Part shown: piece by piece, positions 643 through 5,586 of the stretch | How the letters are laid out: each line of letters begins with the position of its first letter | How positions within the stretch are numbered: the first letter of the stretch is position 1 | Assembly: GCA_946886845.1 (NCBI GenBank) | Contig: CAMPJH010000044.1 | Span: 1-10,342, forward strand | From: an uncultured Sphingomonas sp. | GTDB taxonomy: Bacteria > Pseudomonadota > Alphaproteobacteria > Sphingomonadales > Sphingomonadaceae | Direction: 5' to 3' | DNA length: 10,342 bases | Program-made: the position numbers and the translations under genes | Notes under the pieces: generated by a model | What the model saw: the letters and a program-made list of their open reading frames with translations, nothing else | What the model was told of the DNA's origin: nothing | The model's database searches: none

Positions 643-1845
643 TTACACCCGTTCGAGCGCCAGCGCGATGCCCTGGCCGACGCCGATGCACATGGTTGCG
701 AGCGCCAGCCTGCCGCCGGTGCGCTGCAGCTCCTCGGTGGCGGTCAGCGCCAGCCGCGCGCCCGACATCCCGAGGGGATGGCCGAGGGCAATTGCACCAC
801 CGTTGGGGTTCACATTGGCCGCGTCGTCGGGAAGCCCGAGCTGGCGGAGCACAGCCAACGCCTGCGCGGAAAAGGCCTCGTTCAACTCGATCACGTCGAA
901 GTCGCCGATCTTGACGCCGAGGCGCTTCATCAACTTCTCCGACGCCGGCGCCGGGCCGATGCCCATGATCCGCGGCGGCACGCCGGCGACGGCGGCGCCC
1001 AGAATGCGCGCGCGCGCTGTCAGGCCGTTGCGCTTCGCCGACTCTTCGCTGGCGACAATGATTGCCGCGGCGCCATCATTGACTCCGGATGCATTGCCGG
1101 CGGTGACCGTTCCGTCCTTGCGAACTATCGGCTTCAGCGCTGCAAGTTTCTCGAGCGTCGTCGCGCGCGGATGCTCGTCCTTGCCGACGATTACCGGGTC
1201 GCCCTTGCGCTGCGGAATTTCGACCGCGACAATTTCGGCGGCGAGGCGGCCATTGGCCTGCGCTTCGGCGGTGCGCTGCTGGCTGCGTAGCGCGAACGCG
1301 TCCTGGTCGGCGCGGCTGATCTGGAACTCCTGCGCGACGTTCTCGGCGGTGCTCGGCATGGTGTCGTCGCCGTAGGCGTCTTTCATCTTCGGGTTGACGA
1401 AGCGCCAGCCGATGGTGGTGTCGTAAATCTCGGCGCGTCGGTCGAACGGCTGCGTCGCTTTGGGCATGACGAACGGCGCCCGACTCATGCTTTCGCTGCC
1501 GCCGGCGATGATCAGATCGGAATCGCCGCCGCGGATCGCCCGCGCCGCCATCGCCACCGCGTCGAGACCGGAACCGCACAGCCGGTTGAGGGTCACCCCG
1601 CCCGAGCTGTCCGGAAGTCCGGCGAGCAGGCCAGCCATTCGCGCCACGTTGCGATTGTCCTCGCCGGCCTGGTTGGCGCAGCCTAGGATCACGTCGTCGA
1701 GATCGGCCCAGTCGACGCCGGGGTTGCGGTCGATCAAAGCCCTGATCGGAATCGCGGCGAGGTCGTCCGCGCGGACGCCGCTGAGAGCGCCGCCGTAACG
1801 GCCGATCGGCGTTCGGACATAGTCGCAGATATAGGCTTCGGTCAG
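643..1845 (-). CDS. pcaF: 3-oxoadipyl-CoA thiolase (PcaF/PaaJ type acetyl-CoA acyltransferase), likely CTG start
   Basis: This is a 400-residue thiolase that cleaves 3-oxoadipyl-CoA to succinyl-CoA and acetyl-CoA at the end of aromatic degradation. The nucleophile Cys90 lies in NRLCGSGLDAV, the active-site His356 in GGAIALGHPLG, and the second catalytic Cys386 in CIGVGQG; these positions and the length fit PcaF-type enzymes. The usual N-terminus, TEAYICDYVRTPIGRYGG, is encoded here but no ATG, GTG or TTG precedes it. The codon in the expected Met position is CTG (1845-1843). It overlaps the hpd stop by four bases (CTGA), with a run of four G six bases upstream. The first conventional start, a TTG at 1737, would remove 36 conserved residues, so I chose CTG. 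Acetoacetyl-CoA thiolase is a less likely alternative, because the N-terminus and length favour the oxoadipyl group. Confidence 0.88.
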   Translation of the reverse strand: MTEAYICDYVRTPIGRYGGALSGVRADDLAAIPIRALIDRNPGVDWADLDDVILGCANQAGEDNRNVARMAGLLAGLPDSSGGVTLNRLCGSGLDAVAMAARAIRGGDSDLIIAGGSESMSRAPFVMPKATQPFDRRAEIYDTTIGWRFVNPKMKDAYGDDTMPSTAENVAQEFQISRADQDAFALRSQQRTAEAQANGRLAAEIVAVEIPQRKGDPVIVGKDEHPRATTLEKLAALKPIVRKDGTVTAGNASGVNDGAAAIIVASEESAKRNGLTARARILGAAVAGVPPRIMGIGPAPASEKLMKRLGVKIGDFDVIELNEAFSAQALAVLRQLGLPDDAANVNPNGGAIALGHPLGMSGARLALTATEELQRTGGRLALATMCIGVGQGIALALERV

Positions 1846-2930
1846 ATGACGCCCCGTCGCATCTGGTCGAGCTCGATCGATTCGAACAGAGCCTTGAAAT
1901 TGCCCTCGCCGAAGCCCTCATTGCCCTTGCGCTGAATGATCTCGAAGAAGATCGGGCCGATCACGTTCTGGGTGAAGATCTGCAGCAGCAGGCCCTGCCC
2001 TTCGGTCGGCGCGCCGTCCATCAGGATGCGCCGCTTCTCGAGCTCGGCAAGGTCTTCGTCATGGCCCTCGATGCGCTCGGGAAGCAGCTCGTAATAAGTG
2101 TCGGGCGTGTCCTGGAAGGGAATGCCACGGCCGCGAAGCACGTCGACCGCCTCGTAGATGTCGGTGGTGCCAAGGGCGATGTGCTGGATGCCCTCGCCTT
2201 TATATTCGCGAAGGAACTCCTCGATCTGGCTCTTGTCGTCCTGGCTCTCGTTGAGCGGGATTCGGATCTTGCCGCAGGGCGACGTCATCGCCTTGGAGAA
2301 CAGGCCGGTGACTTTGCCTTCGATGTCGAAATATCGGATCTGGCGGAAGTTGAAGAGCCGCTCATAGAAATCGGCCCAGGTCGCCATGTTGCCGCGATTC
2401 ACATTGTGGGTCAGGTGGTCGATGTAGGTGAGCTTCGAATCCGCTCCGGCCATCCGCTGTTGCCAGTCGGGATGGAAGTCAAAGTCGACCTCGTAGATCG
2501 ATCCGCCGTCGCCATACTGGTCGACGAAGAACAGGCGCGATCCGCCGATACCTTCGATTGCCGGGATGTGGAGCTCGCCGTCGCCCTTCCGCACCTCGAC
2601 ATCGGTCGCGCCGAGGCGGAGCGCGCGGTCATGGGCGGCCTTGGCGTCCTTGACTCGGAAAGCCATCGCGCAGGCGCTCGGGCCATGCGCCTGGGCATAA
2701 TCCTCGGCGTAGCTTCCCGGCTCGGCATTGATGATGAAGTTGCAGTCGCCCTGTTTGTGCAGCGTGACGTTCTTGCTCTTGTGGCGGGCGACTTCGGGGA
2801 AGCCCATTTTGGTGAACAACGACCGCAGAAGCTCGATGTCGGGGGCGGTATATTCGACGAATTCGAATCCGTCGGTGCCCATCGGGTTGGCAAACCCGGT
2901 GACGGTCTTCTCCTCCAAGGTGGTGGCCAT
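1842..2930 (-). CDS. hpd: 4-hydroxyphenylpyruvate dioxygenase
   Basis: This 362-residue Fe(II) enzyme converts 4-hydroxyphenylpyruvate and O2 to homogentisate and CO2, the committed step of tyrosine catabolism. It has the two-barrel vicinal-oxygen-chelate fold. The C-terminal half carries the iron ligands His172 (in YIDHLTHNV), His250 (in GIQHIALGT) and Glu330 (in FFEIIQRKG), spaced as in known bacterial HPPDs. The C-terminal gate helix region, GFGEGNFKALFESIE, is intact. The ATG is preceded by AAGGAG with a six-base spacer. It is the first gene of a minus-strand operon; its stop overlaps the proposed CTG start of the thiolase gene by four bases, which suggests translational coupling. It diverges from phhB across 175 bases. 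Confidence 0.97.
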   Translation of the reverse strand: MATTLEEKTVTGFANPMGTDGFEFVEYTAPDIELLRSLFTKMGFPEVARHKSKNVTLHKQGDCNFIINAEPGSYAEDYAQAHGPSACAMAFRVKDAKAAHDRALRLGATDVEVRKGDGELHIPAIEGIGGSRLFFVDQYGDGGSIYEVDFDFHPDWQQRMAGADSKLTYIDHLTHNVNRGNMATWADFYERLFNFRQIRYFDIEGKVTGLFSKAMTSPCGKIRIPLNESQDDKSQIEEFLREYKGEGIQHIALGTTDIYEAVDVLRGRGIPFQDTPDTYYELLPERIEGHDEDLAELEKRRILMDGAPTEGQGLLLQIFTQNVIGPIFFEIIQRKGNEGFGEGNFKALFESIELDQMRRGVI

Positions 2931-3105: not shown

Positions 3106-3354
3106 ATGGATGCACCGGACGGCTGGGCGCTCGAGGACGGCGGCAAGGCGCTGGTCCGAAGCTTCAAGTTCAAGGATTTCAGCGAGGCGTTCGCCGTCCT
3201 GACTCGGGTCGCGCTGCACGCCGAAAAAGTCGACCATCACCCGGAGTTCACCAGCGTCTGGAACCGCGTCGACTTTCGATTGACCAGCCACGACGCCGGC
3301 GGGGTCACCGACCGCGACCGCAAGCTGGCCGAGGCTATCAACGATTTAGCCTGA
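3106..3354 (+). CDS. phhB: Pterin-4a-carbinolamine dehydratase (4a-hydroxytetrahydrobiopterin dehydratase), short form
   Basis: This 82-residue protein dehydrates the 4a-hydroxypterin released by phenylalanine hydroxylase, so that the cofactor can be reduced again. The family signature is intact: the His-His-Pro-Glu-Phe block at 44-48, VWNRVDFRLTSHDAGG at 51-66 with His62 and Asp63, and a C-terminal helix ending at Leu-Ala. It is shorter than the usual 95-105 residues because the first helix before the GW motif is nearly absent. A TAG at 3088-3090 blocks extension in frame, and AGGAG seven bases before the ATG supports this start. The partner gene phhA lies 1.1 kb downstream on the same strand, separated by a DUF4239 gene on the opposite strand. 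The family call is firm. Confidence 0.94.
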   Translation: MDAPDGWALEDGGKALVRSFKFKDFSEAFAVLTRVALHAEKVDHHPEFTSVWNRVDFRLTSHDAGGVTDRDRKLAEAINDLA

Positions 3355-3365
3355 CGCCGCCGTGG

Positions 3366-4160
3366 CTACGGTTCCGCCCACATCCGATCCAGCCGGTCGA
3401 ACTCGGCCGACAATTCGACGAGGTGCCTGTTGCTGACGCTGAACTCGCCCTTGAACGGGTAATCGACGGTGAGGATGAACAGGAACACGAGACCGAGGGT
3501 GACCGAAATCCCCGCTATCATCACGACGTTGAACCGCGTCGGCGTGAACGCCGATGCATAAGCGACCGTCAATAGCGATCCGACCAGGCCGATCGTCCAG
3601 AGAATGAGCGGTACAGACGTCTGGCTTTCGATGATTCGGTCGTGCCTGAAATCGATGAGGTCATTGAGCTTCCCGAGCATTTCCTCATAGATTGCGCCGG
3701 TCCGATTATCCTCGGGCTGGAGCTTACCGATTTCGTAGAAGACGGTCTGGAGCGCCGCCTCCGTGGTTTCACTACCCATTCCTTCGTGAAGCAGCGGCCA
3801 TTCGTCTTTTGTGACGCTCACGACATAGGCTCTCAGGGCACCGCGTGCCGCGATCGTTTCCGGACCGAAAATGGTCAAATCCTGGTAGAGTTGCGATGCG
3901 GTCGCGGCTTCGTGCGAGACCGCCGCCTTGGCGTCGGAGAAGTCCTGCCACACTGTGACGCCCGCGAAGGCGATCATTATTCCGACATAAGCGGCGACAA
4001 CCTGCATCAGGTTGACCGCAACTTCCTTCTCTTCGCTAGTTGTTTTGAGCCGGAACAGCTTTTGCAGGCCGAGGCTGCTTCCGAGCCCGACCATCAAGGC
4101 CAGTCCAAGGACCAGGATTGTCGATAGCCAGATCGGCAAGTCGTAGAATAAATCGGTCAT
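3366..4160 (-). CDS. DUF4239 (bestrophin-like) membrane protein
   Basis: The 264-residue protein has four predicted membrane helices, at about 9-31, 50-71, 183-203 and 211-232. A polar region of some 110 residues lies between the second and third. The C-terminal block TVDYPFKGEFSVS, just after the fourth helix, is typical of DUF4239, a family sometimes called bestrophin-like. Its function is not established and ion transport is only a guess. I chose the ATG at 4160 because it is followed directly by the hydrophobic N-terminus and preceded by AGGGGG with a five-base spacer. An in-frame start 32 codons further upstream would add a charged stretch with no family likeness. The gene converges on phhB with an 11-base gap and splits phhB from phhA. 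Confidence 0.82.
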   Translation of the reverse strand: MTDLFYDLPIWLSTILVLGLALMVGLGSSLGLQKLFRLKTTSEEKEVAVNLMQVVAAYVGIMIAFAGVTVWQDFSDAKAAVSHEAATASQLYQDLTIFGPETIAARGALRAYVVSVTKDEWPLLHEGMGSETTEAALQTVFYEIGKLQPEDNRTGAIYEEMLGKLNDLIDFRHDRIIESQTSVPLILWTIGLVGSLLTVAYASAFTPTRFNVVMIAGISVTLGLVFLFILTVDYPFKGEFSVSNRHLVELSAEFDRLDRMWAEP

Positions 4161-4293
4161 CCGCACCCCCTGCGGGGAGATTGACCCCAAAAGCGGATCA
4201 TCCGCAACATCTTCGCCGCGGCGGGATGGACGGCAAAGCGTAAACCAGCCGGACATTGATCATTCAGATGCGCGCGGGCATATCGCCCGGGAA
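4161..4293. promoter_or_regulatory. Divergent non-coding region between the DUF4239 gene and the phhA leader
   Basis: This stretch should contain the promoters for the DUF4239 gene (leftward) and for phhA with its leader (rightward). A weak candidate for the rightward promoter is TTGATC at 4256-4261, 17 bases from CATATC at 4279-4284. That would place the transcript start near 4291, at or just before the leader start codon. No conserved protein was found on either strand. A short C/G dyad at 4166-4178 overlaps the DUF4239 ribosome binding site. Confidence 0.35.
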
Positions 4294-4386
4294 ATGAGAA
4301 AATCGCTTGCCTCGATCGATCTGATGCGCGCCGATTCAGCGGCGTCGACGAGCTATTATTACCCGCGGGAGGCCGGAACGACCTGA
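4294..4386 (+). CDS. Putative tyrosine-codon leader peptide of phhA (30 codons)
   Basis: A small reading frame starts at ATG 4294, with an in-frame second ATG at 4324, and ends at TGA 4384-4386. Codons 21-23 are TAT TAT TAC (4354-4362), and the peptide ends Ser-Tyr-Tyr-Tyr-Pro-Arg-Glu-Ala-Gly-Thr-Thr. Three tyrosine codons in a row shortly before the stop recall leader peptides of amino-acid attenuators, such as the Trp-Trp-Trp of alphaproteobacterial trpL. It lies in a divergent gap and is followed by a terminator hairpin just before phhA, whose product makes tyrosine. There is no good Shine-Dalgarno site for either ATG, so translation may start from a leaderless or nearly leaderless transcript. 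Function is inferred from sequence and position only. Confidence 0.6.
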   Translation: MRKSLASIDLMRADSAASTSYYYPREAGTT

Positions 4387-4425
4387 CGCGCATGTAGCGA
4401 CCAGAGCCACCAGCCTCCAGCCCGC
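4365..4425 (+). promoter_or_regulatory. Candidate antiterminator pairing upstream of phhA
   Basis: Bases 4365-4369 (GCGGG) can pair with 4421-4425 (CCCGC). Bases 4370-4373 (AGGC) pair with 4413-4416 (GCCT), and 4375-4376 with 4410-4411. This gives about 11 base pairs with a four-base bulge and one mismatch. The pairing would take up the left arm of the terminator at 4421-4444, so the two structures exclude each other. The left arm begins three bases after the last tyrosine codon. A ribosome at the leader stop codon would cover much of it; one held at the first tyrosine codon would leave most of it free. Read by eye, without an energy calculation. Confidence 0.45.
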
Positions 4426-4450
4426 CAAGCCTCCGCTCGGCGGGTTTTTT
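4421..4450 (+). terminator. Rho-independent terminator acting as attenuator before phhA
   Basis: CCCGCC (4421-4426) pairs with GGCGGG (4439-4444). After one mismatch, three further pairs (4428-4430 with 4435-4437) close a four-base loop. Six T follow at 4445-4450. This is a strong intrinsic terminator on the plus strand. It lies inside the gap between the leftward DUF4239 gene and phhA, ending 24 bases before the phhA start. No rightward gene upstream would need it, which points to conditional termination of the phhA leader transcript. Confidence 0.85.
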
Positions 4451-4474
4451 GTTGCCCGAGAGAAGGACCACCGA

Positions 4475-5244
4475 ATGCTGCAGGAGAAGATCGCACCGAG
4501 CCGGCCGACCGTGCCTTGGCAGGATTATGTCGTCCCGCAAAACTGGGAGCGGTTCGACGACGGGGATCACGCCGTCTGGGACCTGCTGTTTGGGCGGCAG
4601 GTAGAACTGCTCGGAACCCGAGTGATTTCTTCGTTCCTCGACGGGGTCGACCTGCTTCGCCTGTCTCATCCCGGAGTTCCGGAGCTGACCGAACTGAACG
4701 CCATACTCCAGCCGCGCACCGGCTGGCGTACCGTCGCCGTTCCGGGTTTGGTCCCCGATGACATCTTTTTCGCAATGCTGCGCGACCGGGTCTTCCCGGT
4801 CGGCAATTTCATTCGCAGGCGCGATCAACTCGATTATCTCGAAGCGCCGGATTGCTTCCACGACATGTTCGGCCACATCCCGATGCTGGCGAACCATGAC
4901 TTCGCCGAAATGGTCGAACATGTCGGCCGGCTCGGCTTGGCCGCAGTCGCCGCCGGCGAAGGCATCGCGCTGCCCGCTTGTATTGGCACAGCGTCGAGTT
5001 CGGCCTGGCGCGCGAGAATGGCGAGCTGAAGATTCTCGGCGCGGGATTGGCGTCGAGCTTCGGCGAAGCGCATTTCAGCCTGGAGAGCGAGGCTGTCGGA
5101 CGACCGTCATTCTCGGCCGAACGCGCCGTTCGCAGCGCCTACCACCACGACTCCTTCCAGCCGCGCTACCTGGTGTCCCGCTCGCTGGAATCGACGATGG
5201 CCGAGGTGCTGGAGCTGACTCCGGAACGCTTGCTCGCGCTGTGA
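4475..5244 (+). pseudogene. phhA: Phenylalanine 4-hydroxylase, interrupted by a one-base frameshift
   Basis: The gene encodes the pterin-dependent non-heme iron hydroxylase that turns phenylalanine into tyrosine. AAGGA seven bases before ATG 4475 marks the start. The first frame gives HDMFGHIPML with iron ligands His129 and His134, then runs out of family likeness after residue 167 and stops at 5027-5029. The rest of the enzyme continues in another frame, beginning Arg-Leu-Tyr-Trp-His-Ser-Val-Glu at about 4975 and ending at TGA 5242-5244; it includes the third iron ligand. Adding one base in the CCC run at 4973-4975 restores a 256-residue enzyme with 41 residues between the second His and the Glu, the spacing I recall for the Chromobacterium enzyme. 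As written, the product lacks the Glu ligand and should be inactive. It may be a real mutation or a read error. Confidence 0.88.
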
Positions 5245-5247
5245 GCG

Positions 5248-5586
5248 TCAGTCGAGGAGGTCGCCGCTCCGATATGTGCGAGGCGCGGAGACCGCGAGCT
5301 TGGCGCCCGTCTGATCGACCAGGCGGTTCATCAGCAGCGGCGTTTCGAATTCGACTCCGAACCAGCCGCGCTCTGCCCAGGCCACTCGGCCATCGAGCCC
5401 TGTCTTGCCGCACTCCAACCGGACGGATTCGCCCGCTTCGGGTTGGACAGCGGATTCGACAAGCGCGCCGGTGCACGAGATGTCGCGGATGCGTGCATCG
5501 GCGGCGCCGGCGCCGGAATCGATCGTCGCCGACAAGAACACTCGGGAGCGCTTCGGCGCCCGCTTTGGTGCGGTTAGTGGCTGCAT
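5248..5586 (-). CDS. PilZ-domain protein, probable cyclic di-GMP binder
   Basis: This is a 112-residue protein made of little more than one PilZ domain. Both parts of the cyclic di-GMP binding signature are present: RxxxR at residues 9-13 and DxSxxG at 35-40 (Asp-Ile-Ser-Cys-Thr-Gly). The later AWAERGWFGVEF segment fits the end of the PilZ barrel. The ATG at 5586 has AAGGGGGG five bases upstream, and upstream extension would run antisense through the flavin reductase gene, so this start is preferred. The gene converges on phhA with only three bases between the stops. A cytosolic receptor for cyclic di-GMP is likely; the downstream target is unknown. Confidence 0.9.
   Translation of the reverse strand: MQPLTAPKRAPKRSRVFLSATIDSGAGAADARIRDISCTGALVESAVQPEAGESVRLECGKTGLDGRVAWAERGWFGVEFETPLLMNRLVDQTGAKLAVSAPRTYRSGDLLD

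Follow-up and report, generated by a model that had tools for sequence, protein, structure and literature searches.

Introduction

Leader-peptide attenuation is a classical mechanism, and in E. coli the pheL-pheA and trpL-trpE pairs display its usual layout, in which a leader ORF carries several codons for the cognate amino acid in a row and a terminator stands before the gene. Phenylalanine hydroxylase converts phenylalanine into tyrosine, and its product would thus raise the very amino acid that a tyrosine-reading leader senses.

In the alphaproteobacterium Sinorhizobium meliloti, the trpL-trpE(G) attenuator, with its products rnTrpL and peTrpL, gives an RNA that starts from the leader ATG according to the available part of the report; it senses tryptophan and precedes the biosynthetic trpE(G) (PMC7298713). 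The nearest case that we found is the aroR leader before aroF in Corynebacterium glutamicum, whose peptide also contains tyrosine (Phe-Tyr-Phe) but which, in the portion of the article at hand, is reported to respond to limitation for phenylalanine, not tyrosine (PMC11802643). Attenuator-type uORFs have likewise been predicted by comparison, among them uORFC-8-2 (Cys codons before cysS in Rhodobacterales) and uORFC-13-1 (a Phe codon before aroF), which in the accessible part of that work concern other amino acids and genes than tyrosine and phhA (PMC8632094). Phenylalanine hydroxylase has been proposed by GapMind as a route to tyrosine, replacing TyrA or beside it, in Dyella, Legionella and Echinicola, which belong to other lineages than the sphingomonads considered here; the available part of that source mentions no attenuator (PMC7311316). 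The author of a preliminary description of the present locus knew of no described Tyr attenuator of phhA, and none was found in the literature searched, which included PMC2965389, PMC1183508 and PMC1173090 and left most subscription journals outside its scope.

Here we analyze a stretch of 10,342 nucleotides from an uncultured Sphingomonas sp. (the window), in which a Tyr-codon attenuator had been suggested before phhA. We read the element as an attenuator of phhA transcription, mediated by the ribosome and responsive to charged tRNA-Tyr, and assign this reading a probability of about 0.78. The attenuator is well supported overall: comparison shows the leader frame, the Tyr codons, the terminator, the paired strands, the link to phhA and the rarity of TyrA, and from these we infer the start site, translation, stalling and antitermination, the last being least secure in the window's own copy. 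In contrast to pheL and trpL of E. coli, whose targets are shikimate-branch enzymes, the leader has Tyr codons, its target is a phenylalanine hydroxylase and its transcript probably starts without a 5' leader; in the window's group, moreover, the conserved helix abuts the terminator and does not overlap it. The phhA attenuator joins the leader-peptide attenuators as a new case with an unusual target, and would extend the amino acids sensed in this way to tyrosine.

A tyrosine-codon leader and a terminator precede phhA in the window

The leader ORF occupies positions 4294-4386 of the plus strand, from an ATG at 4294-4296 to a TGA at 4384-4386. Its 30 codons encode the peptide MRKSLASIDLMRADSAASTSYYYPREAGTT, with an internal ATG at 4324 and three consecutive Tyr codons (TAT TAT TAC, 4354-4362, plus strand) that stand at codons -10 to -8 relative to the stop. 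An intrinsic terminator follows at 4419-4450 of the same strand, with an 8-bp stem (4419-4426 with 4439-4446), an inner 3-bp stem and a T-run at 4445-4450. Twenty-four bases separate the end of the T-run from the phhA ATG at 4475, and an RBS-like AGAAGGA lies between them at 4461-4467 (plus strand, as read from the sequence). The coordinates given in the preliminary description for the Tyr codons, the stop, the six T and this 24-base gap are all correct.

The gene behind the terminator, phhA (phenylalanine 4-monooxygenase, 4475-5244, plus strand), is read in two frames, 4475-5029 and 4978-5244. Both pieces match Pfam PF00351, and NCBIfam TIGR01267 is matched by both with each piece under the full-length cut-off. 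The frame break falls within 4960-5030 and leaves pieces of 184 and 88 aa, whereas phhA of the genus, among the matches listed, is a single open frame of at least 255 aa. Either a sequencing error or a true frameshift may have caused this split. Neighboring genes encode HPPD (1842-2930, minus strand), a pterin carbinolamine dehydratase (3106-3354), a bestrophin-like protein (3366-4256, minus strand), a 3-oxoadipyl-CoA thiolase and PaaD.

Taken by itself, the window gives mixed signals. The segment 4410-4456 folds at -21.5 kcal/mol (z -4.25), a value that none of 200 shuffles equaled, while the stability of the 181-nt region as a whole does not exceed that of its shuffles (z -0.21). A terminator scan of positions 3500-5500 returned 2 sites against a shuffle mean of 1.9, a count that is not significant. 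No Rfam family reached its gathering score in the window, and a riboswitch or T-box was rejected as a candidate for lack of such a match. A search of the viral collection likewise returned nothing. Since the evidence from the window alone is weak, the case against chance rests on conservation.

The leader is conserved before phhA in relatives

Using the first 169 residues of phhA as a genome-scan query, we recovered 57 loci, of which 15 belong to Sphingomonas or Sphingomicrobium (74-80% identity); each of the 15 shows a terminator, the pairing strands described below and a leader resembling that of the window, in which Tyr codons number two or more. The gene was found in 254 of 298 genomes of the family and in 65 of 71 of the genus. 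Leaders were collected wherever a terminator preceded phhA, regardless of their Tyr content, and the Tyr-richest ORF was then taken in each. This yielded 67 distinct leaders including that of the window, after setting aside later repeats of identical leaders and L083, where an unrelated hairpin precedes a phhA without a Tyr leader. Four further loci (L115, L116, L142 and L147) carry the leader and stand outside the 67. One leader whose stop lies two codons later (L140) was left out of the Tyr-frame count, of the group II helix count and of the duplex, stall and ensemble calculations, and two near copies (L127 and L133) were left out of the model alignment and of the stall and ensemble calculations. 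By leader sequence, and without a tree, the leaders were sorted into groups I (24, including the window), II (21) and III (19).

Across the 67 leaders the distance from stop to T-run is 54-65 nt, and their CCCGCC...GGCGGG stem with its T-run resembles the terminator of the window, a likeness to be read knowing that the leaders were selected by terminator. The C-termini are similar in 66 leaders including the window, and motifs of the type YYYPDEVGIG or YYxxAVETG precede the stop. Tyr occupies codons -10, -9 and -8 in 46, 55 and 54 of the 66, and V or A occupies codon -4 in 65. Within the last 15 codons of these leaders, 173 Tyr codons are in frame, none in +1 and 12 in -1, a contrast that the choice of the Tyr-richest ORF favors somewhat, while the sharing of C-terminal residues is independent of that choice. 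The Tyr codons of the window's group are 60 TAT and 7 TAC, and those of phhA itself in L001-L014 are 29 TAT and 41 TAC.

The preliminary description had named the loss of Tyr codons in relatives that keep the terminator as an observation that would speak against it; in these terminator-selected leaders, 65 of 66 keep at least two Tyr codons within the last 20, and the remaining one has a single Tyr. The Tyr run, its frame, the stop position, the terminator and the pairing strands are thus conserved before phhA in relatives, and comparison confirms the leader and terminator as real and conserved at the level of sequence. An accidental neighborhood of a Tyr-containing ORF and an unrelated terminator would fit a region of the window that folds like shuffles and terminator-like sites at their expected number. 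It is contradicted by the in-frame conservation over 66 leaders and by the specificity to phhA, and we regard it as extremely improbable.

Three relatives (L009, L011 and L012) have GC-rich palindromic repeats, CTCCGGACGGTCC for example, between the terminator and the matched part of phhA, at or close to the 5' end of the gene, and the phhA match begins 103-157 nt past the terminator.

Clear copies of the element sit before phhA

An RNA model was built from 65 leaders. When scanned against the 298 family genomes, with 12 first-look candidates scored per genome and strict filters that may miss weak copies, it gave 12 clear hits at 55.7-102.5 bits, the next best match scoring 35.2, and all 12 sit just upstream of phhA. 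In 246 genomes of the order there were 20 clear hits of at least 42.9 bits and two weaker matches at 36.1 and 35.5. No gene other than phhA was found behind the element among the clear hits in family and order genomes. Placement of the element before other genes was considered and rejected, six matches of 32-35 bits that were viewed having looked like ordinary terminators.

Within the genus the model reaches at least 40 bits at 66 of 69 phhA places, many of which supplied sequences to the model; four leaders outside the model set score 40.0 (L115), 96.0 (L116), 56.6 (L142) and 58.1 bits (L147). The three places under 40 bits are the second phhA of genome G003 (L151) and the two copies found in G328 (L152 and L154).

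A conserved helix adjoins the terminator in the window's group

The preliminary description had drawn an antiterminator between 4365-4376 and 4410-4425. Its strands are conserved in relatives, and the pairing drawn is one of several: the best-kept one joins strand A (GGAGGCCGG, 4368-4376, plus strand) to strand B (CCAGCCTCC, 4410-4418, plus strand), with one mismatch in the window. This helix ends at the base adjoining the terminator stem. A GCCTCC motif in the region of strand B has a second copy at 4429-4434, inside the terminator. Strand A ends 7 nt before the TGA, so that by geometry, and for the footprint size assumed, a ribosome at the stop codon would cover it.

In the 24 leaders of the window's group, standard pairs fill 96% of the helix pair cells. 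Compensatory changes, proposed earlier as a check, are seen in part: two of the nine helix pairs vary on both sides in this group (pair 1, CG in 13 and GC in 10; pair 6, TA in 13 and CG in 9), while fixed-frame column covariation over all 67 leaders gave no clear signal, because the pairing register shifts between groups. Covariation within the helix is modest, strand B having been anchored on CCT, with 11 distinct rows and 24 of 5000 partner swaps doing as well; L069 and L119 were left out of the helix pair analysis by the search pattern, L119 also from the group II count. The leaders' own A:B duplexes come to -15.0 kcal/mol against -12.9 for swapped partners, the best of 5000 shufflings reaching -14.2, and they are mildly better than duplexes in which strand B was shuffled (mean z -0.75, window -0.38). 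For 13 of the 24 group I leaders RNAduplex predicted that strand A may extend, with bulges, by at least 7 nt into the terminator 5' arm; full ensembles do not favor such extensions.

Terminator weakening on stalling is predicted for groups II and III

In the mechanism that we propose, RNA polymerase would start at or just before the leader ATG and the leaderless, or nearly leaderless, mRNA would be translated. When Tyr-tRNA is ample, the ribosome would reach the stop codon and mask strand A, the terminator would form and transcription would end near 4450. When Tyr-tRNA is scarce, the ribosome would wait on the Tyr codons, leaving strand A free to pair with a region reaching the terminator; more polymerases would then enter phhA and tyrosine would be made from phenylalanine.

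To put energies on this scheme, each leader was cut at the 3' edge of a ribosome with either the first Tyr codon or the stop codon in its A site, and the contribution of the terminator 3' arm to stability was computed. The weakening reported here is the stop value minus the stalled value with the edge at +11, in equilibrium energies that take in neither folding order nor pausing. Its mean is +8.6 kcal/mol in group III (19 of 19 leaders above 1) and +4.9 kcal/mol in group II (18 of 21), against -0.2 kcal/mol in group I, with -0.1 for the window; antiterminator and terminator are thus predicted to exclude each other by more than 1 kcal/mol in 37 of 40 leaders of groups II and III versus 2 of 24 in the window's group. 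The identical calculation on E. coli leaders gives +8.2 to +9.3 kcal/mol for trpL, +4.8 to +14.7 for pheL, +9.0 to +13.5 for thrL, +4.2 to +8.3 for leuL and -1.0 to +3.4 for hisL. The predicted stall response of groups II and III is similar to that of these attenuators, and in the model the two groups hold the textbook switch.

The effect depends on the footprint. With the edge at +14 the group II mean drops to 2.0 kcal/mol (12 of 21 above 1), and with the edge at +9 the group I mean is 0.05 (4 of 24 above 1). Over all ribosome positions, group I never exceeds a mean of 2.2 kcal/mol and the window never exceeds 0.6. A classical attenuator has a protecting first hairpin, whereas the terminator of the phhA leaders is predicted to be weakened also with no ribosome present (means of 1.5, 4.4 and 2.8 in groups I, II and III), so that an untranslated leader would not be safely off.

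Before the terminator 3' arm is made, strand A of group III is expected to form 7.6 pairs with the terminator 5' arm and loop. At the same stage, strand A of group II has 5.9 pairs with B and 2.8 with arm and loop, and that of group I has 8.3 with B and 1.1 with arm and loop (6.1 and 4.1 in the window).

The switch as drawn in the preliminary description is not supported for the window's copy. Throughout the window's group, the helix lies next to the terminator and not over it, both can coexist and no switch is predicted on average; simple helix competition leaves the last step of the mechanism unexplained, and this group may work differently or weakly. One explanation is that the window's group has decayed, having lost the overlap of helix and terminator and retaining a fixed partial terminator, with the switch intact elsewhere. 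The 22 of 24 group I leaders without a predicted switch agree with such decay, as does a changed aromatic metabolism, a chorismate synthase match being absent in 19 of 23 window-group relatives (with loci assigned to genomes by us). Yet the Tyr codons, the terminator and the 9-bp helix with its both-side changes are kept across group I, and a fixed terminator would need neither Tyr codons nor helix; we therefore hold decay to be unlikely. On the attenuator reading, groups III, II and I would form a natural series of growing separation between antiterminator and terminator under a retained leader.

We are equally doubtful of a more ambitious version of the attenuator reading. In it, the element would be, to our knowledge, the first Tyr-codon attenuator set on the sole tyrosine step of an animal-like aromatic metabolism, meaning here that phenylalanine is taken up and tyrosine is made by phenylalanine hydroxylase. 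The window's group would add a new geometry, in which a Tyr-gated helix that abuts the terminator, with no overlap, would still control whether transcription ends, through stacking, the order of folding or pausing of the polymerase.

A putative promoter lies close to the leader ATG

A promoter-like motif stands at 4256-4284 of the plus strand, with TTGATC (4256-4261) and CATATC (4279-4284) 17 nt apart, within a conserved CATTGNNCGTTCA block. The motif TTGNNNNTTCA occurs in 22 of the 24 leaders of the window's group, L015 and L103 falling outside the strict pattern, and the ATG follows 6-10 nt past the assumed -10 place. The box 17 nt after TTGNNN reads NATANN in 17 of these 22 and is weaker in the other 5. 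In this form the pattern is absent from most leaders of other groups, and a generic promoter scan of the window did not list the TTGATC-CATATC motif. The listed start of the divergent bestrophin-like ORF (3366-4256) touches the edge of this motif; with an internal ATG near 4160 as its start there would be no overlap.

A transcript beginning about 7 nt past the -10 box would have 0-3 nt before the leader ATG, and the position of the motif suggests a leaderless ORF in the window's group. The preliminary description had found no clear ribosome binding site for the leader and took this for a weak point; none would be needed if the mRNA is leaderless, which is possibly why the site is missing, and the promoter motif offers this answer for the window's group only. 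S. meliloti trpL, where the available part of the report has the attenuator RNA beginning at the leader-ORF ATG, is a precedent (PMC7298713).

The same example suggests an alternative in which the leader RNA released at the terminator, or the peptide that it encodes, would work in trans like rnTrpL and peTrpL, with the hairpins serving RNA stability. Termination would then yield a small RNA of about 157 nt whose ORF is leaderless, like that of S. meliloti trpL in the part of the report available (PMC7298713), but all clear hits lie in cis to phhA and the peptide is more variable outside the Tyr run and the final residues. We judge action in trans to be quite improbable.

phhA is probably the tyrosine-making step in leader-bearing genomes

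The preliminary description tied the leader to tyrosine formation, a link that is borne out in that the element is found where phhA is the likely tyrosine-making enzyme. TyrA (PF02153) is matched over cut-off in 263 of 298 family genomes and in none of the 12 with the element, seven of which were read as TyrA-less by elimination from the list, with a below-cut-off match in G153. A simple draw, ignoring kinship, would leave all 12 without TyrA with a probability of 1e-12. In the genus, 4 of 71 genomes have TyrA over cut-off. The controls were positive in 14 of 14 named genomes for the genus search and 13 of 14 for the family search. These counts concern relatives, the window's own genome not being among them, and some genomes are drafts in which a single absence is weak.

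Other steps of aromatic synthesis are also thinned out in the genus. Prephenate dehydratase (PDT) was found in 14 of 71 genomes, with no match in 57, and chorismate synthase in 48 with no match in 23; in twenty genomes, most of the window's group among them, phhA is present and chorismate synthase has no match. Of the 45 genomes with both genes, 37 have aroC ahead of phhA on the same strand, no more than 10 kb away. PDT, aroC and phhA occur together in G003, G316, G328, G346, G347 and G362, the PDT stretch of G328 and of G362 holding one stop. Judged by gene content, with TyrA under cut-off in 67 of 71 genomes and the gaps in PDT and chorismate synthase, these genus members are likely aromatic amino-acid auxotrophs; many relatives of the window probably depend as auxotrophs on phenylalanine uptake, and phhA is probably the tyrosine-making step. 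A tyrosine-starvation switch before phhA would mean that these bacteria treat the enzyme as their source of tyrosine, in line with TyrA being rare among them and PDT and chorismate synthase often missing. It would also offer a regulatory mark by which biosynthetic hydroxylases could be told from catabolic ones.

Leader and TyrA loss do not form a strict pair, as seen from G003, G005 and G316, which have both TyrA and the leader, from G328, where TyrA is present and the leader absent, and from 10 TyrA-less family genomes inspected in which phhA lacks the leader. On the side of a link, 32 phhA genes inspected in TyrA-bearing family genomes have no such leader. In G014, G108, G170, G218 and G256, TyrA was not found, phhA is present and no Tyr leader was seen upstream; these genomes would represent another way of running phhA without TyrA. 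Finally, one stretch of G003 (C1:176464-181321) brings together a second phhA that lacks the Tyr leader, a split tyrA, chorismate synthase and prephenate dehydratase, a cluster that resembles an aromatic-synthesis island.
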